This document shows, one piece after another, positions 13,779-30,090 of a stretch of DNA of 32,170 nt (positions within the stretch are counted from its first letter, which is position 1; each line of letters opens with the position of its first letter). A program made the position numbers and the translations under genes. This DNA is from a bacterium (GTDB lineage Bacteria > NPL-UPA2 > JAGMAN01). The stretch is from assembly GCA_023130215.1 (NCBI GenBank), contig JAGMAN010000030.1, positions 1 through 32,170 of the forward strand, read 5' to 3'. The notes beneath the pieces were generated by a model. That model searched no databases. It had not been told where the DNA came from and saw only the letters and a list, made by a program, of their open reading frames with translations.

Positions 13779-14963
13779 GTGACTTTGAAAATAGTGATTG
13801 TGGCTGGGGGGACGGGAGGGCATCTATTCCCTGGCTTGGTCATAGCTGAGAAGCTGAAGCAGGGGGAAGTAGGATGCGCCATTACCTTCATCGGGAGGAG
13901 GAGAGGTTTGGAAGCCGAGACTGTGCCCAGGGAAGGATTTGCATATCTTAATATATTGGGCGAGGGATGGTTGGGGAAATCTCCGGGAAGGCTTCTTTCA
14001 TCTGTGATAAAGACCCTCTTGGGATTTTTCCAATCTATCTATATCTTGTTAAGGCTTCGGCCGAATGTCGTCGTGGGAATGGGGGGATATCTATCCGGAC
14101 CATTCGTCTTGGCAGCCTCTCTCCTTGCCAGGCTGTCACGAAACCCGTTCCAGCCAAGGCGGCACTTTCACGGCGTCCTATTTCACACCTTGATCCATGA
14201 GCAAAACCTGATGCCGGGTATTACCAATCGCATCCTGAGCAGGTTTGTTAATGAAGTCAATGTAAGTTTTGCTGAGTCAATGCCGTTTTTCCCAAATGGA
14301 AAAGCAGTCTTTACCGGCAATCCTGTTCGCGGTGAAATCGTCCGGAGTCAAAAAAGGAAGAGTGAAAGTGCAAAGACGATATTAGTAATGGGAGGAAGTC
14401 GAGGGGCACATCGGATAAATGTATCTATGTTGGAGGCGGTTAATTACTTGACACGTAAGAGTGCTGCCTTTAGGGCTGTCCGCAGGACGTCCTTTAGGGC
14501 TGCAAGCGAAGAAAAGGTGGGGTCTTATAGTGTAATTCACTTAAGCGGCAGGGAAGATTATCAACTTGTGGTGGAGACCTATAAAAAGGCTGGGGTAGAA
14601 GCAGTGGTCTATCCATTCCTTCACCGGATGGAAGAGGCATACAGTCAGGCTGACCTGGTCATCTGCCGGGCTGGTGCCACTACCTTAGCTGAAGTTACTG
14701 CCTGTGGGCTGCCGGCTATTCTTATCCCTTACCCATGGGCTACCCACCATCATCAGGAGCAAAATGCCCGCTGGCTGGAAGGCAGTGGGGCAGCAGTGAT
14801 AATAGAGGACTGGGAGTTAACCGGGGAGTGCTTAGCCGGGGCCATTTTGAACTTATTGGCCGAGGAGGGGAAACTCTCCCGGATGGCTGAGAACAGCCGT
14901 CGGTTAGGTAGACCGAAAGCGGCTGAAAAAGTGGTGGAGAGAATCCTGCGCCTGGCAAGTTAG
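13779..14963 (+). CDS. murG: Lipid I GlcNAc transferase MurG with two lineage-specific insertions
   Basis: Peripheral membrane GT28 enzyme that adds GlcNAc to lipid I, making lipid II. The N-terminal domain has the GGTGGHLFPGL loop (about 10-20). HEQNLMPG (about 144-151) and the C-terminal UDP-GlcNAc site with CRAGATTLAEV (about 300-310) are intact. At 394 residues it is about 40 longer than the usual 355. The excess falls in two places: a basic, aromatic stretch RNPFQPRRHFHGVLFH (about 120-136) before HEQN, and residues 224-244 (TRKSAAFRAVRRTSFRAASE), encoded by the interspersed repeat described below, in a loop before VIHLSG. Both leave the frame open and the motifs intact, so the enzyme is probably functional. 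The start is GTG at 13779. The cluster is interrupted right after this gene. Confidence 0.93.
   Translation: MTLKIVIVAGGTGGHLFPGLVIAEKLKQGEVGCAITFIGRRRGLEAETVPREGFAYLNILGEGWLGKSPGRLLSSVIKTLLGFFQSIYILLRLRPNVVVGMGGYLSGPFVLAASLLARLSRNPFQPRRHFHGVLFHTLIHEQNLMPGITNRILSRFVNEVNVSFAESMPFFPNGKAVFTGNPVRGEIVRSQKRKSESAKTILVMGGSRGAHRINVSMLEAVNYLTRKSAAFRAVRRTSFRAASEEKVGSYSVIHLSGREDYQLVVETYKKAGVEAVVYPFLHRMEEAYSQADLVICRAGATTLAEVTACGLPAILIPYPWATHHHQEQNARWLEGSGAAVIIEDWELTGECLAGAILNLLAEEGKLSRMAENSRRLGRPKAAEKVVERILRLAS
14448..14511 (+). repeat. Interspersed coding repeat, copy 1 (inside murG)
   Basis: Full-length copy of the roughly 60-bp element. It contains GCTGCCTTTAGGGCTG, a GTCC-GCA-GGAC hairpin overlapping the palindrome AGGACGTCCT (14484-14493), then a second CCTTTAGGGCTGC. 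It encodes SAAFRAVRRTSFRAAS in frame with murG. It is nearly identical to copies at 17267-17327 and 23330-23389, and its left flank (TTGACACGTAAGAG) is identical to the shortened copy in rpoD. Confidence 0.92.
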
Positions 14964-14990
14964 CTCGGCTATCGCCTCGCAACTTACTAT

Positions 14991-15019
14991 CGTATGGGAA
15001 ATTTATAATTTCCTATACG
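14991..15019. repeat. 13-bp inverted repeat between murG and the glycan cassette
   Basis: CGTATGGGAAATT, a 3-nt loop TAT, then AATTTCCTATACG pair along 13 bp with one G-T mismatch. No T-run follows, so it is not a normal terminator. A TATAAT (15004-15009) spans the loop and could be a -10 element. It lies at the boundary where the dcw order is interrupted. Confidence 0.7.
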
Positions 15020-15042
15020 GCAAGAAAATGTTAAATACGATG

Positions 15043-15056
15043 AGGCAGTACTGCCT
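15043..15056. promoter_or_regulatory. Perfect 14-bp palindrome upstream of the GH130 operon
   Basis: AGGCAGTACTGCCT reads the same on both strands and ends 19 bp before the first GH130-like start codon. Its size and place suit an operator for a dimeric repressor, but no regulator gene is adjacent. The palindrome is seen; its function is inferred. Confidence 0.4.
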
Positions 15057-15075
15057 ATGGCTGTATTGATGAATC

Positions 15076-16122
15076 ATGATCAGGCATAAAAAGAATCCAC
15101 TTATTACCCCACACATGGTCGCACCGACTGTGCCCGAGCTTGAAGTAATGGGAGCTTTCAATGCGGGGGCAACTGTTTACCGGGACCAGGTTATACTGCT
15201 TGTGCGAATTTCCGAGCGATGCAAGGTAGAGCCAGGGGGCATCGGTGTTCCACTTTACCGTTTCGAAGATAGCAGGAGCAGACTTGAGATCGCCCGTTTC
15301 AAGCATGGCGATCCTGACGTTCAACTTAAGGATACTCGTGGTGTTGTATATAAGGGCATTGATTATCTCTCGACGCTTAGCACAATCCGTGTCGCCAGAA
15401 GTGCTGACGGGATTAATTTTAGCGTTGACGCTCAGCCGCTTCTGTATCCCTGTACGCCGAGTGAGCAGTACGGGTGCGAGGATGCGCGAGTAGTGAAGAT
15501 CGAAGGCGAGTATTACATTAACTACACAGCAATATCCCGAGACGGGTGGGCCACAGCGCTGTGTACTACGCAGGATTTCAAATCCGTTTTTAGGAAAGGT
15601 ATTATCTTCTATCCGCCGAACAAGGACGTTTGCCTCTTTCCGGAAAAAATCCGAGGAAGGTACTGGGCGCTACACAGGCCGCACAACGAAGGTTTCGGCA
15701 AGCCATCAATATGGATTTCATCATCGCCTAATCTTCTTGACTGGGGAGAACATCAGTGCCTGATCCGCCCGCGGAACAACGAGTGGGAACGGATAAAGAT
15801 AGGGGGTGGCGCCGCTCCCATAAAGACAGACAAGGGTTGGCTCGAGATATGTCATGGCAAAGGCGACAATTCTGTGTACTACCTGTTCACGCTCCTGCTT
15901 GACCTGGAAGATCCAGCGCGGGTTGTCGCAAGAGGCGAGAAACCGTTTCTGGCTCCTGAAGAGGATTATGAAACCAGTGGGTTCTTCCCCAACATCGTTT
16001 TCTCGAACGGGCTTGTTGAGCGCCCGAATGGAGAGATCTACCTCTACTACGGTGCGTGCGACGAAACTACGAATCTGATTATAACCAGCGTTGACGAGTT
16101 GCTGGCAGACTTGAATACGTAA
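15076..16122 (+). CDS. GH130-family glycoside phosphorylase/hydrolase, paralogue 1
   Basis: Predicted cytoplasmic five-bladed beta-propeller enzyme (348 residues, no signal peptide) of glycoside hydrolase family 130, whose members phosphorolyse or hydrolyse beta-mannosides. Visible family traits are KKNPLITPHMV at the N-terminus, FNAGATVYRDQVILLVRIS (28-46), CEDARVV (134-140) containing the Asp136 expected to act as general acid, FPEKIRGRYWALHRP (about 196-210) and ISSSPNLLDWG (about 216-227). Substrate and the choice between phosphorolysis and hydrolysis cannot be fixed from sequence reading. It is the first gene of a four-gene cassette inserted between murG and murC; codon use (GCG, CGC, CGT) looks different from the mur genes, suggesting transfer. 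No clear ribosome-binding site is seen; the start is chosen from homology of the N-terminus. Confidence 0.85.
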   Translation: MIRHKKNPLITPHMVAPTVPELEVMGAFNAGATVYRDQVILLVRISERCKVEPGGIGVPLYRFEDSRSRLEIARFKHGDPDVQLKDTRGVVYKGIDYLSTLSTIRVARSADGINFSVDAQPLLYPCTPSEQYGCEDARVVKIEGEYYINYTAISRDGWATALCTTQDFKSVFRKGIIFYPPNKDVCLFPEKIRGRYWALHRPHNEGFGKPSIWISSSPNLLDWGEHQCLIRPRNNEWERIKIGGGAAPIKTDKGWLEICHGKGDNSVYYLFTLLLDLEDPARVVARGEKPFLAPEEDYETSGFFPNIVFSNGLVERPNGEIYLYYGACDETTNLIITSVDELLADLNT

Positions 16123-16137
16123 TGTGAGGGTGGAAAG

Positions 16138-17265
16138 ATGAGAATAGGAATAGTATCAACATATCCGCCAATCGAGTGCGGGATAGGGACTTACTCTCAG
16201 TACTTGACAGGCGCATTGAGGCAGATAGGAAATGAAGTATATATTTTCAGTCAGTACGGGGGTAAAGGTGATTATGTTTTCGGCACCTACTCACCGCAGG
16301 AGGAGAGCATCGCGGCGGAGATTTTCGAGATGGCTTCTAAGATGACGCCGGACGTGCTTCATGTTCAGCATGAGTTTGGTCTTTACGGCCACCCCAGCAG
16401 GAAACAGGTTGTGGAGCTGGTCCTTATGTCCCGCCGTGTCACCGATCTCCCGACAGTGGTGACGTTTCACACCGTGCGTGAGAAGTTTATACCCGAGCAG
16501 GAGCAGGTCGTCAGTTTAGTAATGCAGGAAAGCAGTGCGATTATTGTTCACGAAGAGTATTACAAGAAAATACTGACTGAACACTTCGGGCATGCTGACA
16601 AGATTCATGTAATTCCGCATGGCGTACGCGAAATGGAGGAAGTTACTGACGCGCGCAAGAAAATAGGTGTTGAAGGAAAGAAGGTTATTCTCCTGTGCGG
16701 GTACCTGCGTGAGACTAAACGTTTCGACAGGGTTGTGAAAATTTTTCCGAAGGTAGCCAAAGCTGTGGATGACGCCGTTCTGGTTATTGCGTCTAAGTCG
16801 CGCAGTGTGGATCATCCGGAGTATCAGAGAAAGCTGTACAGGATGATTGAAGAATCACCCGCGACTGACAGGATTATGGTTCTTCATGGGCAGTTTCCGC
16901 AGCACATCTTTGACACGATAGTGTCCGCGGCACACGTTGTGCCCTTCCCCTATGAAGCGGGCGGGCAAAGCGGTACTATGGCGCATTGCTTTGCGTTCAG
17001 GAAACCGGTGGTTACTTCCGACCTCAGGTCTTTTAAGAATTGGATTGAGGAGTCACAGGGCGGTCTTGTGGCCAGTTCCGACGAAGAACTCGCAGATCAC
17101 ATCATCAGAATATTGACGGACGATAAGTTGAGCGAGTCTCTGCGCAGAAACATTGACAGGTTTGTCAGCAAAAAGGTTTCGTGGAGGATCGTGGCCGGCC
17201 AGCATATTGATGTTTATGAGAAATACGCGTGGCGGCCCACGCCCAGGTCGAGGTATTTCGGGTAG
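16138..17265 (+). CDS. GT4-family glycosyltransferase
   Basis: Predicted cytoplasmic GT-B retaining glycosyltransferase (375 residues). The N-terminal Rossmann domain begins MRIGIVSTYPPIECGIGTYS with the donor/acceptor loop GIGTY. HVQHEFGLYG (about 75-84) and VVTFHTV (about 107-113) are typical of GT4 enzymes. The C-terminal nucleotide-sugar domain has LLCGYLRETKRFD (about 185-197) and YEAGGQSGTMAHCFAFRKPVV (near 277-297). The second Glu of the usual E-x7-E motif is not obvious. GGTGG precedes the ATG. Flanking GH130-like genes suggest a mannosyl donor such as GDP-mannose, but this is inference. The product probably elongates or decorates the glycan that the neighbouring enzymes remodel. Confidence 0.88.
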   Translation: MRIGIVSTYPPIECGIGTYSQYLTGALRQIGNEVYIFSQYGGKGDYVFGTYSPQEESIAAEIFEMASKMTPDVLHVQHEFGLYGHPSRKQVVELVLMSRRVTDLPTVVTFHTVREKFIPEQEQVVSLVMQESSAIIVHEEYYKKILTEHFGHADKIHVIPHGVREMEEVTDARKKIGVEGKKVILLCGYLRETKRFDRVVKIFPKVAKAVDDAVLVIASKSRSVDHPEYQRKLYRMIEESPATDRIMVLHGQFPQHIFDTIVSAAHVVPFPYEAGGQSGTMAHCFAFRKPVVTSDLRSFKNWIEESQGGLVASSDEELADHIIRILTDDKLSESLRRNIDRFVSKKVSWRIVAGQHIDVYEKYAWRPTPRSRYFG

Positions 17266-17266
17266 A

Positions 17267-17327
17267 ACATGTCCGAGTGCTGCCTTTAGGGCTGTCCGCA
17301 GGACGTCCTTTAGGGCTGCAAGCGGAG
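17267..17327 (+). repeat. Interspersed repeat, copy 2 (upstream of second GH130 gene)
   Basis: Full-length copy beginning 2 nt after the GT4 stop and ending with GCGGAG. The sequence differs from the murG copy by only a few bases. Here it is not inside a recognised gene body; the final bases with the next ones give GGAGGA, the ribosome-binding site of the following gene. Confidence 0.92.
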
Positions 17328-17336
17328 GAACTTCAG

Positions 17337-18281
17337 ATGTTCAGAAGAAAAATGACACAAAGAGATGTTGTTCACAGGTGGGAGGGTAATCCTCTTATCA
17401 GGCTTCAAGACTTGGATTTTCAGTGCGCAGATGTATGGTCTGCAGGTGTGGCGTCTTACCAGGATGACATCATTCTTCTTGTTACCATCGAGCATCTTGC
17501 GGGATTTCAGTCCATACATCTTGCCGGGAGTGATGAGAAGGGCCGTTTCCATGTGAAGGAGGAACCATTCATTGGCGCCCGCAGGGATCCTCTTGAATTT
17601 GGACTGCATGAGTCGCGTGGCGTCATGGATGCCAGGGTGACCTTGATAAACGGAGTTTATTACATTGTCTACCTCGCCAGCGGTGAGCATGGCTTCCGGC
17701 TGGGACTGGCAACAACGAGGGATTTTGTCAAAGTCGAGCGACATGGCCTTATTTCAGAGCCTGATACGAAAACCGGTGCGCTCTTTCCCGAAAAGATCAA
17801 GGGACGCTATGCGAGACTATGCCGTCCTCGGGAAGGGAACAGCATCTGGGTCAGTTACAGTCATGATCTTATCTACTGGGGTGACAGTGAACTTCTTCTG
17901 TCACCGAGAGCAGGCTTCTGGGACTCATCACGCGTTGGGGCAGGTCCCCCTCCGATGAAAATTCCCCAGGGGTGGCTGTTGATATATTACGGAGTCAAGG
18001 AGACCCAGGCCGGCCCTCTGTTCCGGCTGGGCGCGGCTATCCTAAGCGGAGAAGACCCTGTAAAGATTGTCAGCCGCTCAAATATCCCAATCCTGTCACC
18101 GCGTGAGGACTATGAGCGTATCGGCGACTTGAGTAATATCGTGTTTTCTACCGGCGCATTGGTCAAGAACAACAACGAAATGGATATCATTTACAGCGGA
18201 GCCGACAGTTGCATTTGTCTCGGAAGTACAACCGTTGAGGAAATTGTGGAAACCTGTTCTATGAGCAAGGAGGAATTCTAA
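17337..18281 (+). CDS. GH130-like protein, paralogue 2, with altered active-site motifs
   Basis: 315-residue cytoplasmic beta-propeller protein related to paralogues 1 and 3. It shares HRWEGNPLIRLQDL (13-26) with paralogue 3, and FPEKIKGRYARLCRP and VSYSHDLIYWG with the family. Two otherwise conserved positions differ. The strand motif reads LLVTIE (47-52) where the paralogues have VRIS or LRVE, losing an Arg at residue 50. The general-acid motif reads GVMDARVT, with Met97 replacing Glu before Asp98. The Asp itself remains. Activity may be changed, or the protein may be a regulatory or binding partner. The start at 17337 is 8 nt after GGAGGA; an open frame extends upstream through the repeat to 17229, but that would overlap the GT4 gene. 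Confidence 0.82.
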   Translation: MFRRKMTQRDVVHRWEGNPLIRLQDLDFQCADVWSAGVASYQDDIILLVTIEHLAGFQSIHLAGSDEKGRFHVKEEPFIGARRDPLEFGLHESRGVMDARVTLINGVYYIVYLASGEHGFRLGLATTRDFVKVERHGLISEPDTKTGALFPEKIKGRYARLCRPREGNSIWVSYSHDLIYWGDSELLLSPRAGFWDSSRVGAGPPPMKIPQGWLLIYYGVKETQAGPLFRLGAAILSGEDPVKIVSRSNIPILSPREDYERIGDLSNIVFSTGALVKNNNEMDIIYSGADSCICLGSTTVEEIVETCSMSKEEF

Positions 18282-19214
18282 GTGATGCCCCGACGGCCTA
18301 TGGGCAGAGACCTGTTACATCGATGGGAGGGCAATCCGGCCATCAGGATGGAGGATATTCCTTTCCGGGCCAACACGGTGTTCAACGGCACGCCGATAGT
18401 GACTAAGGAAGGCGTGTTACTCCTGTTAAGGGTTGAGGGACAGCAGGGATATTCCATGTTCGCCCTGGCACGAAGCCGGGATGGTCTGCGCTTCAAGGTT
18501 GATGAAAGGCCGGTAATGATGCCGGATAAAAGCGGACCTTTCGCAGAGTACGAATTGAGAGGCATAGAAGATCCACGCGCGACGTTCCTGGAAAACACCT
18601 GCTATATAGTCTACACGGCTGTAGGTAAATGCGGTCCGCGAATTGCCATCGCGAAAACCAGAAATTATGTCAACTATGAGCGCATCGGGCTTGTTTCCGA
18701 GCCGGGGAACAAAGACGGTGTCCTGTTTCCCAGGAAGATTAAGAGCAGGTACGCCAGACTTGACAGACCGATAGGTGGCGGTCGCGGCAGCATCTGGATA
18801 TCGTATTCGCCAGACCTGCTAAATTGGGGTGATTCTGAAATTGTAATGACGCCTCGGACCGGTTACTGGGATGACTTTCGCATCGGCGCCTCTGTGCCTC
18901 CGATAGAGACCTCTCAGGGCTGGTTGGAAGTTTATCACGGGGTCAAGTTAACCTCTGCCGGCGCGATTTACCGCATCGGAACCGCCCTGCTTGATCTTGA
19001 TGACCCATCGAAGGTCATCAAGCGCAGTTCTACGCCAGTCCTGTCGCCGCGTGAGCACTATGAGCGGATCGGCGACGTTCCGAACGTGTGCTTTGCCTGT
19101 GGCGCCGTAGTTGATCCCGACGGCAGGATGAAAATTTACTACGGAGCGGCGGACACGTCCATTTGCGTGGCGCTCTGCACGCTGGAGCAGGTTCTCACGG
19201 AGAGTTTCGATTAA
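18282..19214 (+). CDS. GH130-family glycoside phosphorylase/hydrolase, paralogue 3
   Basis: 310-residue cytoplasmic protein, closest in the window to paralogue 2 but with canonical motifs: LLLLRVEG (46-53), RGIEDPRAT (93-101, Asp97 the likely general acid), FPRKIKSRYARLDRP (about 150-164), and ISYSPDLLNWG (about 174-184). It starts with no gap after paralogue 2. AGGAGG is 8 nt before GTG 18282 and 11 nt before ATG 18285; either may be used. The GH130 type suggests release of mannose 1-phosphate from a beta-mannoside if phosphate is the acceptor. It is the last gene of the inserted cassette; murC follows 38 bp later. Confidence 0.87.
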   Translation: MMPRRPMGRDLLHRWEGNPAIRMEDIPFRANTVFNGTPIVTKEGVLLLLRVEGQQGYSMFALARSRDGLRFKVDERPVMMPDKSGPFAEYELRGIEDPRATFLENTCYIVYTAVGKCGPRIAIAKTRNYVNYERIGLVSEPGNKDGVLFPRKIKSRYARLDRPIGGGRGSIWISYSPDLLNWGDSEIVMTPRTGYWDDFRIGASVPPIETSQGWLEVYHGVKLTSAGAIYRIGTALLDLDDPSKVIKRSSTPVLSPREHYERIGDVPNVCFACGAVVDPDGRMKIYYGAADTSICVALCTLEQVLTESFD

Positions 19215-19252
19215 TAGGCAGCACAGAACTTTAGTTAACCAAGGGACTATAC

Positions 19253-20635
19253 ATGTTAGAGGGGATTAAGAACATTCATTTCATTGGTATTGGCGGAGCG
19301 GGAATGAGCGCTCTGGCCCAGGTTTTACTGGAACTGGGCTATAGGGTGAGTGGTTCAGACATAAAGATGAACCTGATTACCAAACGCCTTGAGGAGCGAG
19401 GAGCAGTGGTTCACCACGGCCACGGGGAAGAGAACTTAGCTCAAGCCGATTTAGTGATATTCTCCTCAGCCATTCCTTCTATCAATCCCGAACTGAAAGC
19501 AGCCCGCCTGCGGGGTCTTTCCGTCCTCTCCCGGGGAGAGATGTTAGCTGAGCTGATGAGGGAGAGGAATGGAATTGCTGTGGCCGGAACGCATGGGAAG
19601 ACCACCACCACTTCCATGGTCGCCTCTATCCTCTCCGAAGCTGCGCTCGATCCAACTATAGTTATTGGAGGAGAGCTAAATGACATTGGAGGAAATGCCA
19701 GACTTGGGCATAGCTCGTACTTAGTAGCTGAGGCTGATGAGAGCGATGGCTCTTTCCTGAAACTATCTCCTGCCTTGGCCGTAGTCACCAACATCGAAGC
19801 TGATCACCTGGAGTATTATCATAACCTGCCTGCTATCATTGAGGCTTTTAGAAGGTTTGTCGGAAGGGTCTCCGATGACGGATGTCTAGTCCTATCTGAC
19901 CATCCAAATGTTAGGAAGATAACAGGGAAAAACGAAAAACGAAAAACGAAAAACGTTAGGATATTGACCTATGGTATTAAGCAGGGAGTTGACCTGGTAG
20001 CTAAGGAAGTGAAGTTCCGGGGATTGGGATCAGAATATGAGGTCTTTCATCGAGGGGAGAGGTTAGGCAAGATCAAGCTCGGGGTGCCGGGCAGACACAA
20101 TATCTACAATTCGCTTGCGGCCATTGGGGTTGCATTAGAGGTAGGGGTTGGGTTTGAGAAAATAAGCTCTGCTCTGACTAATTTCCATGGGGTCCAGAGG
20201 CGCTTTGAGATAAGGGGTGAAGTTAAGGACATTGTGGTAGTGGATGACTATGCTCATCATCCCACTGAGATAAGAGCTACTCTAAAGGCTGCCCGGCAGT
20301 GGAGAGCGAAGAGAATAATCGGAATATTCCAGCCGCACCGCTATACCAGGACAAAATTCTTAAGAAAGGATTTCTCCTCGGCCTTTGAGGAAGCAGACTT
20401 CCTGGTCATAACTGAGATCTATTCGGCTGGTGAGGAACCTCTGCCCGGGGTAAGCGGGCGGGACATATACGAGGCGGTTCGAGACATTGGCCAGGAAAAC
20501 GTCGAGTTCATTCCAGACAAATCAGAGATTGCTGACCGGGTAATGAACATCCTTCAGCCAGGAGATACGGTGATTACTATGGGAGCAGGGGATATTGATA
20601 CGGTAGCCGGGGAAATAGTGCAAAGGTTAAGGTGA
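19253..20635 (+). CDS. murC: UDP-N-acetylmuramate:L-alanine ligase
   Basis: First Mur ligase of stem-peptide assembly, cytoplasmic and ATP-dependent. The protein has 460 residues, with the N-terminal IHFIGIGGAGMSALA (8-22), the ATP loop AGTHGKTTTT (111-120) and the C-terminal VVDDYAHHPTEIRAT and FQPHRYTRT segments typical of MurC. AAGGG lies upstream of the ATG. A tandem array of four GAAAAAC heptamers (19927-19954) encodes a short Lys-rich loop near residues 225-234 between the ATP domain and ITYGIKQG, probably a lineage-specific insertion. The gene resumes the dcw order after the glycan cassette. Confidence 0.97.
   Translation: MLEGIKNIHFIGIGGAGMSALAQVLLELGYRVSGSDIKMNLITKRLEERGAVVHHGHGEENLAQADLVIFSSAIPSINPELKAARLRGLSVLSRGEMLAELMRERNGIAVAGTHGKTTTTSMVASILSEAALDPTIVIGGELNDIGGNARLGHSSYLVAEADESDGSFLKLSPALAVVTNIEADHLEYYHNLPAIIEAFRRFVGRVSDDGCLVLSDHPNVRKITGKNEKRKTKNVRILTYGIKQGVDLVAKEVKFRGLGSEYEVFHRGERLGKIKLGVPGRHNIYNSLAAIGVALEVGVGFEKISSALTNFHGVQRRFEIRGEVKDIVVVDDYAHHPTEIRATLKAARQWRAKRIIGIFQPHRYTRTKFLRKDFSSAFEEADFLVITEIYSAGEEPLPGVSGRDIYEAVRDIGQENVEFIPDKSEIADRVMNILQPGDTVITMGAGDIDTVAGEIVQRLR
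19927..19954 (+). repeat. Heptanucleotide tandem repeat (GAAAAAC)x4 inside murC
   Basis: Four perfect GAAAAAC units. As seven is not a multiple of three, gaining or losing one unit would shift the murC frame. Confidence 0.95.
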
Positions 20636-20639
20636 AAAT

Positions 20640-21560
20640 ATGAGTTTAGCTAAAGAAATTACCCGGATTGTGAAAGGCAAGATAAAATTCAATGAGCCGT
20701 TGAGTAAACATACTTCACTTCGCATCGGCGGCCCGGCTGATTACTGGGTAGAACCCAAAGATTTAGAGGATTTGAGAGTAATCCTTGAGTTTGCTTTAGA
20801 CAGGCACCTACCCTGGAAAGTTCTGGGAGAAGGGACGAATATCCTGGCCCGGGATAGAGGATTTCGGGGGCTGATTATAAGCTTGAGAGGTGACTGTTTC
20901 CAGAAACTTGAATTTAATGAGGAAAAGGTAGCGGCGGGGGCTGGAGTTCTCTTATCTAAGCTGACCTCGGAAGCAGGCGAGCGTGGCTTGGGAGGATTGG
21001 AATTTGCTGTTGGTATTCCGGGGACAGTGGGAGGCGGAGTGGTCACGAATGCGGGAGCTCAATCGGTCTCGGTGGGAGATGTCACCAGTTCGGTAAAGGT
21101 TCTCAACCCATCCAGGGGAATCTCTCTTCTGAAGAAAGAAGACTTGAAGTTTGACTACGGTGAAACAGTGCCCTTCGGGTATCGCACCTGCAACCTTGGG
21201 AAAGATGAGGTAGTCTTAGAGGCGGAGATGGAGTTCAAGAAGGAAGATAAGGACGAGATTGCTAATTTAATGAAGGAGCATTCAAGGAAAAGAAAAGAAA
21301 CCCAGCCTCTCCGCGAGGCGAGCGCGGGATGTATCTTTAAGAATCCTTCTCACGTTTCAGCGGGAGAATTGATTGATAAAGCAGGCTTAAAGGGCAGGAG
21401 GGTAGGAGATGCCCAGGTTTCTACCAAACATGCCAACTTTATCATCAACCGGGGAGGAGCTAAGGCAGAAGAAGTATTTAGTCTCATGGAGACAGTCAGA
21501 GAAGAAGTCCTCAGGAAGATGGGAATAAGATTAGAACCAGAGATTGAAATTATTGGATAG
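20640..21560 (+). CDS. murB: UDP-N-acetylenolpyruvylglucosamine reductase
   Basis: FAD-dependent enzyme reducing UDP-GlcNAc-enolpyruvate to UDP-MurNAc. The 306-residue length and lack of the extra loop suggest the type II form. FAD-site elements are HTSLRIGGPAD (24-34), GEGTNIL (63-69), and GLEFAVGIPGTVGGGVVTNAGA (about 119-140). The proton-donor segment reads AGCIFKNP, placing Cys231 where many MurB proteins have Ser; Cys variants are known to occur in the family. EPEIEI near the end carries the conserved Glu. AAGGTGA precedes the ATG, 4 nt after murC. Confidence 0.96.
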   Translation: MSLAKEITRIVKGKIKFNEPLSKHTSLRIGGPADYWVEPKDLEDLRVILEFALDRHLPWKVLGEGTNILARDRGFRGLIISLRGDCFQKLEFNEEKVAAGAGVLLSKLTSEAGERGLGGLEFAVGIPGTVGGGVVTNAGAQSVSVGDVTSSVKVLNPSRGISLLKKEDLKFDYGETVPFGYRTCNLGKDEVVLEAEMEFKKEDKDEIANLMKEHSRKRKETQPLREASAGCIFKNPSHVSAGELIDKAGLKGRRVGDAQVSTKHANFIINRGGAKAEEVFSLMETVREEVLRKMGIRLEPEIEIIG

Positions 21561-21566
21561 TGTTCA

Positions 21567-22544
21567 ATGGTAAAGACGAATCAAATAGCTAAGAAAAAGA
21601 TTGGCGTGCTTATGGGTGGGCCTTCCAGCGAGAGGGAGATCTCATTCAAGTCGGGAAGAGCGGTGGAGGAGGCTCTGCGGGGAAGTGGTCTGAATGTGGT
21701 GGCTATCGATGTGGATAAGGATATAGAGGAGAGGTTGAAGGAGGAAGGGGTGGAGGTAGCCTTTATCGCCCTTCACGGAAGATATGGGGAGGATGGCACC
21801 ATCCAGGCCCTATTAGAATCATTGGCCATTCCCTACACTGGCTCCGGAGTGGAGGCAAGCCGCATGGCTATGAATAAGGTTGCCTCCAAAGAAGTTTTCT
21901 TAAGGGATGGGATACCCACTCCGGATTTCTATGTCTTAGAGAGAGAGAAGGATAAGGATAAGGATAAGGATAAGGATAAGGAGGTAGTCATCTCTCAGCC
22001 TCCTCGCCATTCCACCATAAAGGTTCCAGTAGTCATCAAGCCGGCTCGAGAAGGGTCAACCATCGGGGTATCAGTTGTTAAGGAGGAAGAAGATTTCCTG
22101 CCGGCATTGGATAGAGCTTTTCGATACGATGATAAAATTTTAGTGGAGGAGTATATAGATGGAAGGGAGGTAACCGTCAGTATTTTGAATGGATCGGCAT
22201 TACCTGTTATTGAAATCGTTCCTAAGCACGAATTTTTCGATTTCGAGGCCAAGTATACAAACGGCTTAACTAAGTTTAAGGTTCCAGCTCCTCTTAGTAA
22301 GGAGCTCTACGGCAAGACTCAGGAAGTTGCTCTGCAGGCACATCGGGCCTTAGGCTGCAGGGGTATGTCCCGGGTAGATATGAAGGTGAGTCAGGAAGGA
22401 AAGCCTTATGTATTTGAAGTGAATACCATCCCGGGGCTAACCTCCATCAGCCTCCTGCCCAAGGCCGCCCAGGTGGCTGGAGTTAGTTTCCCACAGCTCT
22501 GCAGGAAGCTAATTGAGATTGCCTTGAGGGAGAAAGCAGGATGA
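21567..22544 (+). CDS. ddl: D-alanine:D-alanine ligase
   Basis: ATP-grasp enzyme making the D-Ala-D-Ala dipeptide used by MurF. The 325-residue product shows KIGVLMGGPSSEREISFKSG (11-30), HGRYGEDGTIQ (70-80), YTGSGVEASRMAMNK (90-104), VVIKPAREGSTIGVS (155-169) and FEVNTIPGLTSISLLPKAA near the C-terminus, so ATP, Mg and D-Ala sites look intact. An acidic/basic DKDKDKDKDK run (129-138) comes from five GATAAG hexamers at 21951-21980 in the loop before VVIKPA. It overlaps ftsQ by ATGA. Confidence 0.97.
   Translation: MVKTNQIAKKKIGVLMGGPSSEREISFKSGRAVEEALRGSGLNVVAIDVDKDIEERLKEEGVEVAFIALHGRYGEDGTIQALLESLAIPYTGSGVEASRMAMNKVASKEVFLRDGIPTPDFYVLEREKDKDKDKDKDKEVVISQPPRHSTIKVPVVIKPAREGSTIGVSVVKEEEDFLPALDRAFRYDDKILVEEYIDGREVTVSILNGSALPVIEIVPKHEFFDFEAKYTNGLTKFKVPAPLSKELYGKTQEVALQAHRALGCRGMSRVDMKVSQEGKPYVFEVNTIPGLTSISLLPKAAQVAGVSFPQLCRKLIEIALREKAG
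21951..21980 (+). repeat. Hexanucleotide tandem repeat (GATAAG)x5 inside ddl
   Basis: Five perfect units encoding (Asp-Lys)5. Slippage would change loop length without shifting frame. Confidence 0.95.
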
Positions 22545-23392
22545 GAGGAAATGGTCAGATAAGGACGAGGAAGAAGCTCGGGGAACGCAGAAGAGAGAAA
22601 AGGAAGAAGCTCTTTAAGGGATTGGGTAAGTTAACTCTAATCCTTTCCCTTATAGCTGGACTTGCTTTCGCCGGGAAGAAGGCAGAAGATTTCCTTCTCA
22701 CCTCCCATTTCTTCCGGATTAAGGAAGTAAATTTCAAGGGAGCTACCTTCCTTAGGCAGGAGGTCTTGGAGAAATTAGCCAATATCAAGCTGGGTAAGAA
22801 TATATTCCGGGTCAATTTAAGGGCAATCCAGGAGCGTCTGGAAAGGAATCCCCGGGTTAGAGAGGCTATTATCTCTCGAGCTTTCCCCAATGCGGTCACA
22901 GTTAATATTAGGGAGAGGGAAGCAGTTGCTCTCTTTGAAAGCGGCGGCGAAGCCTATCCGGTTGATAAGGAAGGAGTGGTGTTGCCCCGCCCTGGGCGGG
23001 CTAATCCTTTCTCCCACTCTCTTCCCCTCATTAAGGGAGTGAAGGGGTATCGGCTGAAGGTGGGAGAGAAGCTTCAGTGTCCGAAATTGACGGTGGCCCT
23101 GGAGCTATTAGCTGCTTTAGCCTCATCCGGTCTAAAAGTAAATTCCTATGGTATAAATTTAGGAGGGCCGGAGTTAATTCTGGCCAATAAGAGAACAAAG
23201 GTCTTATTGGGAGAGCTAAGTAAAGAGAAATGGATGAGAGAGTTAAAACTCATTCTGTCTGACCTAACCGAGAGGGAAGAGGAAGCAGAATATATAGATT
23301 TGAGGTTTTCCAGACCAGTGGTGAAGCTTACACGTCCGAGTGCTGCCTTTAGGGCTGTCCACAGGACGTCCTTTAGGACTGCAAGCGAATGA
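22541..23392 (+). CDS. ftsQ: Cell division protein FtsQ with repeat-derived C-terminus
   Basis: Bitopic divisome protein linking cytoplasmic and periplasmic components (283 residues). It has a very basic cytoplasmic N-terminus (1-26), one membrane helix (about 27-45), a POTRA domain beginning FRIKEVNFKGA (58-68), and the FtsQ/DivIB beta domain with REREAVALFESGG and VDKEGVVL. The native domain seems to end near VVKLTR. The last 20 residues (264-283, about TRPSAAFRAVHRTSFRTASE) are encoded by the interspersed repeat. The ATG overlaps the ddl stop and the TGA overlaps the ftsA ATG. Confidence 0.93.
   Translation: MRGNGQIRTRKKLGERRREKRKKLFKGLGKLTLILSLIAGLAFAGKKAEDFLLTSHFFRIKEVNFKGATFLRQEVLEKLANIKLGKNIFRVNLRAIQERLERNPRVREAIISRAFPNAVTVNIREREAVALFESGGEAYPVDKEGVVLPRPGRANPFSHSLPLIKGVKGYRLKVGEKLQCPKLTVALELLAALASSGLKVNSYGINLGGPELILANKRTKVLLGELSKEKWMRELKLILSDLTEREEEAEYIDLRFSRPVVKLTRPSAAFRAVHRTSFRTASE
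23330..23389 (+). repeat. Interspersed coding repeat, copy 3 (ftsQ/ftsA junction)
   Basis: Full-length copy with a few substitutions (GTCCACAGGAC, TAGGACTGC). It encodes the ftsQ C-terminus in the same frame as the murG copy and ends right at the first base of the ftsA ATG, thereby forming the ftsA translation-initiation region. Confidence 0.92.
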
Positions 23393-28335: not shown

Positions 28336-30090
28336 TTATCCTTTTTTCTCTGCCAGCTCTGACTCTAAGAATCCTTCTAATTTCCTGCTTCGCTTTGGAT
28401 GGCGAAGTTTCCCCAGGGCCTTGGCTTCAATCTGGCGCACTCTCTCCCTGGTCACTTCGAAGATTGTCCCCACCTCTTCCAGGGTGCGTGGGTAACTATC
28501 TCCAATGCCAAACCGAAGCCGCAGCACCTTCTGTTCCCTCTCCGTTAAAGTGGCTAGCACCTTCTCCATCTGCTCCTTGAGCATGAGGAAGGCAGTAGCA
28601 CTGGCCGGACAGATTGCTTCTTTATCCTCAATGAAGTCGCCGAAGTGGCTGTCTCCTTCATCTCCAACCGGGGTCTCTAAGGATATTGGCTCCTGGGCAA
28701 TCTTCAGTATTCCTCGGACCTTATCCGATGCCATCTTCATCACCTCAGCTAACTCTTCGGCCGCCGGTTCCCGTCCATATTCCTGGACAAGATAGCGGGA
28801 AGCTCTAATCAACTTATTGATGGTCTCAATCATATGAACAGGAATGCGAATGGTTCGGGCCTGGTCGGCAATGGCCCGGGTTATAGCCTGTCTAATCCAC
28901 CAGGTAGCATAGGTGGAGAACTTATATCCTCGACGATACTCAAACTTATCTACTGCTCTCATCAGGCCGATGTTTCCCTCCTGAATGAGGTCAAGGAAGG
29001 ATAAGCCCCGGCTAGTATAGCGCTTGGCGATTGACACTACCAGGCGGAGATTGGCTTCCACAAGCATCTTCTTGGCTTTATCTAACTTCCTTTCCTCTTC
29101 CTTTGCCAAACGGAGGAATCTGCGAATTTCATCCTTGGTTGTCCTTCCTTCCCTCTGCATCCTTCGAATCTTTTTCTGCCCGCTTCTAATTTCTCGGTAG
29201 AAACTGCTAATCTCCTCCCGCCCGAGGCCGCTCTGCCGGACTGCCTTCCTGGCCTCCCGGGGACCCTTAGCTACTCTTCGAGCTAATTGGCCAATCTCCT
29301 TCATTTTTAGACCAGCTTTTCTTTCCACTTTTTTAATATGGCTTTCTGCTTTCTCCATCTTCGCCAACAAATCCTTGAGCTGGGAGATAACTCTGCTCAT
29401 TTCTTCTTGGCTCAGATTAAATTCCTTCTCGGCCTGGATGATTTTCTCCTTCGCTCTCGCCCTCTTTGCTGAAAGCTTCTCCCTTTCCTTAAGGGGCAGA
29501 GTCTTTTTTTTCAACTGTCTCTTGAGGCTGGATAGTTCAGTTTCCCCCTTCTTCAACCTATCCATAAGCCTGGGAAGCTTTCTCAAGAGTCCTTTAGTAG
29601 CCTGAGGCGACCTCTCTTCACCTACCCCCTTTAATTTAGGCCCTCCTTCGCTTGCAGCACTCTTACGTGTCAATATCTTTTGCCCCAGGTTCCTCAGCTC
29701 CTTAGCGGTGAAGTCAGCATCCAGGACCAGGTTCCTTAAGTTTTCCTTAGCTCCTTCTATCTCCTTAGCCAATCGTATCTCCTCTTCCCGGGCCAATAGG
29801 GGCACCTGTCCCATCTCCCTGAGATACATTCTCACCGGGTCTTCTACTCTAACCTCTTCCGGGAGGACCTTCTCCTCTTTCACCTTAGCTGCTTTTTTCT
29901 TCTTATAGGATTCCTCGGTGGGGACAATCTCTATATCCATATCCCCAAGCATGACCAGGATGTTATCGATCTCCTCCGAGGAGATGACATCCTGAGGGAG
30001 AATGTCGTTCACCTCAGCGTAGGTGAGGTGACCTTTCTCCTTTCCCTTCTCAATGAGCTTCTGGACCTCTTCTCTTCTTTCCACTTTCAA
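28336..30090 (-). CDS. rpoD: Primary sigma factor RpoD (sigma-70/SigA)
   Basis: Main promoter-specificity subunit of RNA polymerase (584 residues). Region 1.1 covers about 1-60, and region 1.2 holds [16 protein letters not shown] (84-99). A long Lys/Arg/Glu-rich non-conserved insert (about 140-335) follows. Regions 2.1-2.4 include [21 protein letters not shown] and [17 protein letters not shown], region 3 follows, and region 4.2 ends with [14 protein letters not shown] (about 546-559). The shortened interspersed repeat lies at the start of the insert (residues 140-149, [10 protein letters not shown]). The start is TTG directly after the dnaG TAA, with GGGGTGAG upstream; a GTG two codons on is possible. 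dnaG-rpoD is the classical macromolecular synthesis order. Confidence 0.97.
29646..29673 (-). repeat. Shortened copy of the interspersed repeat inside rpoD
   Basis: On the minus strand TTGACACGTAAGAGTGCTGC is followed directly by AAGCGAAG. Compared with the murG copy, exactly 36 bp between two GCTGC direct repeats are missing. The reading frame is the same (KSAASEG against KSAA...SEE). Confidence 0.85.

Follow-up and report, generated by a model that had tools for sequence, protein, structure and literature searches.

A nested system of very small, probably mobile coding elements in bacteria of the candidate phylum NPL-UPA2

Mobile coding repeats of the type represented by the Rickettsia palindromic elements (RPEs) are already known. 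The RPEs measure about 150 bp, are inserted in frame and carry a conserved peptide (PMC10969869). Here we describe a repeat with a core of only 21 nucleotides (nt), termed element A, and the hairpin-forming sequences (fillers) nested in it. They were found in a window of 32,170 nt which represents one whole contig (JAGMAN010000030.1, here C61) of the draft genome G000. The host belongs to the uncultured candidate phylum NPL-UPA2, which comprises deep-groundwater bacteria. The first described member of the phylum originates from serpentinised groundwater (PMC6305446); repeats, palindromes or insertions are not mentioned in that first genome paper, and literature searches retrieved no report on repeats in NPL-UPA2. 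Taken together, A and its fillers very probably constitute non-autonomous mobile elements of minute size that are nested in one another.

The comparison was based on three draft metagenome-assembled genomes (MAGs) of 69-90% completeness, namely the genome of the window (G000; 1.01 Mb, 136 contigs, 90% complete) and two other genomes of the same genus (G006 and G007), the phylum being represented by nine genomes only in the collection searched. The window is syntenic with the sister genomes at a nucleotide identity of 82-92%. The count of copies relies on BLAST and pattern searches in the three genomes and on additionally fetched stretches; within the left 16 nt of A, two to three mismatches were tolerated. 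The left-end pattern yielded 15, 32 and 38 matches in G000, G006 and G007, respectively, compared to 6, 1 and 8 matches of the reversed control. Both ends were present in 57 copies (10, 21 and 26 in the same order) at 49 distinct sites, and BLAST within G000 returned nine matches. Each genome therefore holds about 10-30 copies and not the hundreds expected in the original prediction, which had been made from the sequence of the window alone; since the contigs C48, C87 and C119 terminate within such repeat sequence, these counts are lower bounds.

A chance origin of the repeat can be ruled out: an 81-nt query recovers the other two long copies of the window with an E value of 4e-21, and of 84,980 species genomes only two others, namely G006 and G007, contain the exact 22-mer. 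No copy was detected by BLAST in the six other genomes of the phylum. The exact 21-mer of A was found in no IMG/VR contig, and viral carriage was rejected as the exact A, B and C units (B and C designating the filler types introduced below) are all absent from this database. An origin from a known RNA family or a tRNA was rejected likewise, the window being devoid of Rfam and tRNA matches. The termination of three contigs within the repeat might point to an artefact of assembly, adapters or binning. However, the same orthologous insertions occur in three separately assembled MAGs, with flanks diverged by about 10-16% and with different fillers, which makes such an artefact extremely improbable.

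Element A is exactly 21 nt long (CACGTAAGAGTGCTGCAAGCG), and all copies share the form ACACG(T/A)AAGAGTGCTG ... CAAGCG. Its two halves are directly joined in 33 of the 57 copies, while the other 24 contain a filler of 12, 24, 36, 39, 48, 51, 54, 60, 63, 72 or 84 nt, in all 24 cases a multiple of three; the longest copy measures 106 nt. The repeat of about 60 bp that had originally been regarded as a single mobile palindromic unit is thus composite: a 22-nt frame surrounds a filler of 36 nt, the actual unit being the 21-nt core with an optional filler. The two ends of A (ACACG... and ...AAGCG) do not form an inverted repeat. A parent element with long inverted ends was considered and rejected, since just a few ACACGAAGGAGTGCTC copies were found; an A-like palindrome (ACACGAAGGAGTGCTCCCC...GGGGAGCACTCCTTCGTGT) was observed once, in G007 (G007:C5:851-901, L113). 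It belongs to a related form, ACACGAAGGAGTGCTCCCCTTTC(G/A)GGGAGC, that lies in a gene for a sigma-54-type regulator (G000:C120:726, L106) and is enlarged in G007 to a near-perfect palindrome of 51 nt with A-like ends.

Searches with joined flanks and a systematic alignment of orthologous loci provided 30 comparisons between filled and empty sites. In 21 of these, which represent 14 distinct sites, the filled allele is longer by the filler plus exactly 21 nt, and none of these pairs of empty and filled sites shows a target-site duplication. CACGTAAGAGTGCTGCAAGCG enters directly behind a pre-existing target base, which is nearly always an A and in a gene of the PSP1 family a G, so that the copy reads GCACG. 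A is an exact insert of 21 nt between the target A and the next bases, in a context that existed beforehand and without duplication. Deviating lengths, all explicable, were encountered at the gene end of a UVR-motif protein (L056; 22 nt, the resulting frameshift being harmless there), at ftsQ (18 nt) and at sites with nearby insertions or deletions. At the moeA site G000 is empty, G007 carries A with a filler of 51 nt and G006 holds only the first 12 nt.

The context of the insertion follows the rule A^(A)A(R)G over the 49 sites: A is found at L0 in 47, A at +2 in 44 and G at +4 in 41 of them, whereby the search pattern itself partly determines the count at L0, but not those at +2 and +4. A^NANG matches 34 of the 49 sites compared to 1.7% of the positions in the window. 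This preference holds equally for every reading frame, for either strand and for non-coding copies, and therefore belongs to the insertion step rather than to selection at the coding level.

The three long copies and the short minus-strand copy of the window have the sequences originally described, with coordinates that agree within a few bases, and they lie in or beside unrelated genes, each oriented with its host gene. The copy inside murG (14451..14508, plus strand) comprises the first 16 and the last 6 nt of A and a 36-nt B-type filler, CCTTTAGGGCTGTCCGCAGGACGTCCTTTAGGGCTG (14467..14502, plus strand), which interrupts A in its middle (GCTG^CA). It adds TRKSAAFRAVRRTSFRAAS to MurG, where the insert region covers about 30 residues compared to about 10 in the solved homologue 3s2u. 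The orthologous site in G006 is also filled, there by A with a different, C-type filler of 39 nt. A variant of A (ACATGTCCGAGTGCTG...CAAGCG) with a B filler of 36 nt was detected at 17267..17324 on the plus strand; its assignment to the spacer between the GT4 and GH130 genes stands, its exact position being corrected to just past the GT4 stop codon, and the orthologous site was found in neither G006 nor G007. At the 3' end of ftsQ, a further variant (ACACGTCCGAGTGCTG...) with 36 nt of B (23330..23387, plus strand) lengthens the FtsQ terminus and is directly followed by the ATG of ftsA. This junction is empty in G006 (AAGCTTAAATAATGAAG), corresponding to a net gain of 54 nt in the window.

A pristine A without filler is inserted in rpoD (29649..29670, minus strand) and adds the peptide TRKSAAS. 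The site is empty in G007 (ATATTAAAAGGAGGG), with a net difference of exactly 21 nt, and the insert is absent in G006, too; in a comparison with structural homologues it falls in a stretch without aligned counterpart. The reverse situation was met in murC, where the site at 19923..19941 (plus strand) is empty in the window and in G007 and filled in G006 (L041), again with a net gain of 21 nt. A tandem repeat of four GAAAAAC units (7 nt each, 19927-19955) adjoins the point of insertion in G006. Clean empty sites in sister species, in-frame copies in many unrelated genes and the absence outside one genus lend good support to the original proposal of a mobile coding element resembling the RPEs.

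Across the three genomes, 43 of the 49 sites (about 88%) are located in genes with an assignable reading frame, which is near the random expectation for a dense genome. Hosts confirmed by Pfam are the ribosomal proteins L15 and L25, EF-G, YchF, trigger factor, CoaE (two sites), FabD (two copies), MoeA, MurC, thymidylate kinase, a class II tRNA synthetase, Mfd, MnmE, the K protein of a type II secretion system, a histidine kinase and sigma-54 regulators; sigma-70 (rpoD) and MurG are further hosts. One copy is placed at a start codon (ATG^ACACG). A should be translated as a linker of seven residues (TRKSAAS, HVRVLQA, NTKECCK or ACSTLTC), the host frames staying open as judged from their sequences.

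The fixed frame SAAFRAVRRTSFRAAS originally assigned to the repeat does not hold across the genus, since A is read in the forward frames 0 (TRKSAAS, 23 sites), 1 (HVRVLQA, 10 sites) and 2 (NTKECCK, 4 sites) as well as on the minus strand (6 sites). Frame 2 would encounter a TAA, and every genic copy in this frame has a stop-free GAA variant. Compared to the distribution of A.A.G in genes, which is an approximate background, frame 0 is in excess and the antisense orientation is depleted (chi-square, p 2e-13). The over-representation of frame 0 (23 of the 43 genic sites) might be taken to indicate an ancestral or lineage-specific protein segment under peptide selection. Against this speak the several alternative readings of the same DNA (HVRVLQA, NTKECCK, ACSTLTC and others) and the lack of the peptide both in sister species and at the insert point in solved homologues of MurG and EF-G, whose alignments show a break or gap there. 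The diversity of frames and the empty sites refute this reading, which is hardly credible.

Small hairpin-bearing inserts within essential genes also recall translational bypass, in which the ribosome skips the insert, as is known from gene 60 of phage T4 and the byps of yeast mitochondria. Yet all fillers are multiples of three, the core has 21 nt and the copies in frame 2 contain the stop-free GAA, a pattern expected from read-through, so that bypass seems highly unlikely. The suggestion that the repeat is a recoded RNA found no support either, as insertions inside genes keep the frame.

Seven independent sites are filled in two species. At these sites 153 of 154 positions of A are identical compared to 1215 of 1394 (87%) in flanks of 100 nt (Fisher test, p 8e-8), and at third codon positions the values are 47 of 48 for A and 277 of 378 for the flanks (p 2e-5). 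Alignment by the flanks alone yielded intact sites, empty sites and a single partial one; since detection furthermore tolerated mismatches, this conservation is not due to search bias alone. It cannot be explained by selection at the protein level because the copies are read in different frames. We infer that it is due either to selection acting on the nucleotides themselves or to a homogenisation of the copies through gene conversion or re-insertion.

The same figures, above all the conservation of third codon positions despite different frames, would suit a functional nucleotide-level signal, such as a protein-binding DNA site or an mRNA element, which is kept by selection and whose mobility is secondary. 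However, gene conversion would yield equal conservation, the presence of A varies freely among sister species at orthologous sites, and its few copies per genome are spread over unrelated genes without a common position. We regard a functional signal as rather unlikely and prefer to interpret A as a mobile unit.

The fillers are mini-hairpins nested at the centre of A, and they are lineage-specific. Those of G000 are built from CTGTCCGCAGGACGTCCTTTAGGGCTG (B), while G006 and G007 have fillers (C) that string together CACAGCCGAAG, CACCGCAAAG, CAGTGCCGATTCTCAGG and CAGTGCCGTAAGG; the C unit was counted 26 times in G006, 20 times in G007 and not once in G000. B and C elements sit in the centre of A at the same orthologous sites, in varying lengths and with the frame kept. 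The ychF site contains a bare A in G000 and G006 and A with 51 nt in G007; murG has B in the window and C in G006, species-specific fillers also occur in coaE and other genes, and the filler lengths at other shared sites compare as 24/63, 54/84 and 24/0 between species. As the same sites contain either bare A or differing fillers, A is the older insertion, and the fillers reached its centre later, in a lineage-specific manner. Related fillers may exchange single bases, with the total still divisible by three (12+12 vs 11+13).

Both filler types also occur outside A. B stands alone in adk of G007, and C is free-standing in G006 and G007 with the ends TACGGTGAA...GGCAGTAC. The infA gene of G000 is split across the ends of two contigs, C87 and C48, that share 20 nt of B as their overlap; IF-1 of G000 thus presumably carries a B insert, although it was not seen within one contig. 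A long C-type array containing A on the minus strand is inserted in MnmE of G007 (L052) and G006 (L068), its length differing between the two species. A further repeat of G006, CCCAGGGG(T/C)TTCCCC...TTACCCCTTAAGGGGAACCAGATTGTTCCCCTTAACACAGCCGAAGGCAGTGCCGTAAGGCAACCC (L194, L196, L198, L212 and L220), possesses a longer conserved block with C units at its end. The RNA fold of the 58-nt B form (-23.2 kcal/mol) is moderate (z -1.87), and bare A has none that is stable; the C form folds no better than shuffled sequences. A single stable RNA or DNA structure was therefore rejected.

The fillers consist of mini-hairpins in series which lengthen, shorten and replace one another in place, and this suggests hairpin-driven template switching or repair patches. 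Short palindromic pieces from elsewhere in the genome would be copied in while DNA is replicated or breaks are repaired, and the frame-preserving ones selected; hairpin loops are known spots of slippage. This would hardly account for an identical 21-nt A at dozens of unrelated sites with fixed ends, a target preference and no common flanking homology. For the system as a whole we therefore consider template switching improbable. A defined insertion reaction fits A better, and template switching stays a good rival for the fillers.

Insertion of A is probably the work of an enzyme acting in trans that would join the ends without staggered cuts in the target, as in a single-strand, HUH-like or similar reaction. 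Purifying selection would then retain only those insertions that preserve the frame, in protein loops and at gene ends. Tentatively, and with clearly less certainty than for mobility as such, A may represent a recognised DNA (or RNA) unit of 21 nt and the smallest coding mobile element known. An undescribed enzyme would insert it at A^NANG without target duplication, homogenisation or selection would keep it identical across species, and it would act as a landing site for frame-keeping hairpin cassettes, the essential proteins of the genus thereby possessing a growing, species-specific nested insert.

Several points weigh against the interpretation as mobile elements, among them the draft state of the three MAGs. 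A reverse transcriptase was rejected as the mover because RVT_1 was matched in none of the three genomes, an absence that is not final in drafts of this completeness. The same applies to a Y1 transposase of the IS200/IS605 type: Y1_Tnp is absent in G000 and G006, and the sole one of G007 has different ends. No mobile element as short as 21 nt is known to us. Bare A forms no stable hairpin, its folds as DNA and RNA (z about +0.7) being no better than those of shuffled sequences. At one coaE site, G000 and G007 carry the insert and G006 is empty, which requires loss, transfer or parallel insertion. Moreover, the usage of frames is far from the distribution of targets, so that selection or a strand-coupled insertion is needed in addition. 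This bias is most simply read as selection, once A has been inserted, for a peptide that does no harm; the coupling of insertion to one strand is the alternative. The Y1 transposase gene of G007 (L184, G007:C78, 887-1641), RAYT-like by sequence, is flanked by inverted repeats of AAATAGGGACAGCGACCATTT that are unrelated to A, and G006 possesses a similar repeat (AATAGGGACAGCGACTATTTTT) downstream of mfd (L047).

Other repeats were noticed in the window. Downstream of murG, TACGATGAGGCAGTACTGCCTATGGCTGTA (15037..15066, plus strand), with TAC...GTA ends, resembles the free-standing C-class arrays of G006 and G007 (match to L174) and is a candidate member of a related hairpin class; this class is abundant in both sister genomes, and its C units are absent from the genome of the window. 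A second interspersed repeat (CAAGTTAGCTCGGCTATCGCCTCGCAACTTACTATCGTATGGGAAATTTATAATTTCCTATACGGCAAGAAAAT, 14956-15029), about 74 nt long, begins at the murG stop codon and includes a long AT-rich palindrome, with one further identical copy in G000 (L006, 761-834) and five relatives in G007. In ddl, AAGGAT is repeated six times in tandem (21948-21982; KDKDKDKD). Between murG and murC, three GH130-like genes and the GT4 gene (15076-19214) are located within the cluster for cell wall and division; this region has a BLAST match in neither sister genome.

With regard to known systems, the mycobacterial interspersed repetitive units (MIRU) are coding repeats at gene junctions which keep the frame of the neighbouring genes, as do the copies at ftsQ/ftsA and ATG^ACACG; most copies described here lie within genes, however, and length, sequence and target differ. 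The double-hairpin elements of fungal mitochondria are likewise small and mobile and consist of two adjacent mini-hairpins, in an organellar host. Repetitive extragenic palindromes (REPs) are units of 20-40 nt served in trans by an HUH enzyme, the REP-associated tyrosine transposase (RAYT). REPs, whose size is documented elsewhere (PMC3733652), are extragenic hairpins, in contrast to A. The repeats on either side of the sole RAYT-like gene (G007), AAATAGGGACAGCGACC, have no relation to A, and no Y1 transposase had ends matching element A. A miniature inverted-repeat transposable element was rejected since target-site duplications (21 comparisons) and terminal inverted repeats are lacking.

The GC clusters of yeast mitochondria (GC42, GC18) are hairpin elements of 18-42 nt that stand alone or merge at the same homologous site and undergo shuffling (PMC4478555). 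Hairpin units merge and shuffle at the same site in the present system, too. It differs by its bacterial host, its sequence, the location of about 88% of the sites in genes and the lack of duplications, whereas GC clusters are mostly intergenic and flanked by AG or ACT duplications.

The palindromic elements of Rickettsia and Wolbachia are also short in-frame inserts of several families in unrelated, often essential genes, where unstructured segments tolerate them (PMC10969869, PMC2996958). In-frame insertion in many protein genes was found here as well, as the 43 genic sites, the Pfam assignments and the empty sites document. However, RPEs are palindromic, of about 100-150 bp, with one conserved peptide each, whereas A has 21 nt, with 106 nt in its longest copy, is not palindromic by itself, and is read in several frames (23/10/4) and on the minus strand (6); it is distinguished further by its sharply defined target and by the secondary elements nested in it. 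Among the species genomes scanned, no Rickettsia contains the exact 22-mer, the RPE sequences themselves not having been compared.

The three sister genomes provide exact pairs of before and after, the unit length of 21 nt, a target rule and a staged growth, which renders the mechanism testable. The system shows how constrained proteins such as EF-G, RpoD, L15 and L25 can accept a foreign peptide, and calls for caution in annotation and structure prediction in uncultured phyla. The element is a variant within the mobile coding repeats, similar to the RPEs and the GC clusters yet departing from the defining features of both.

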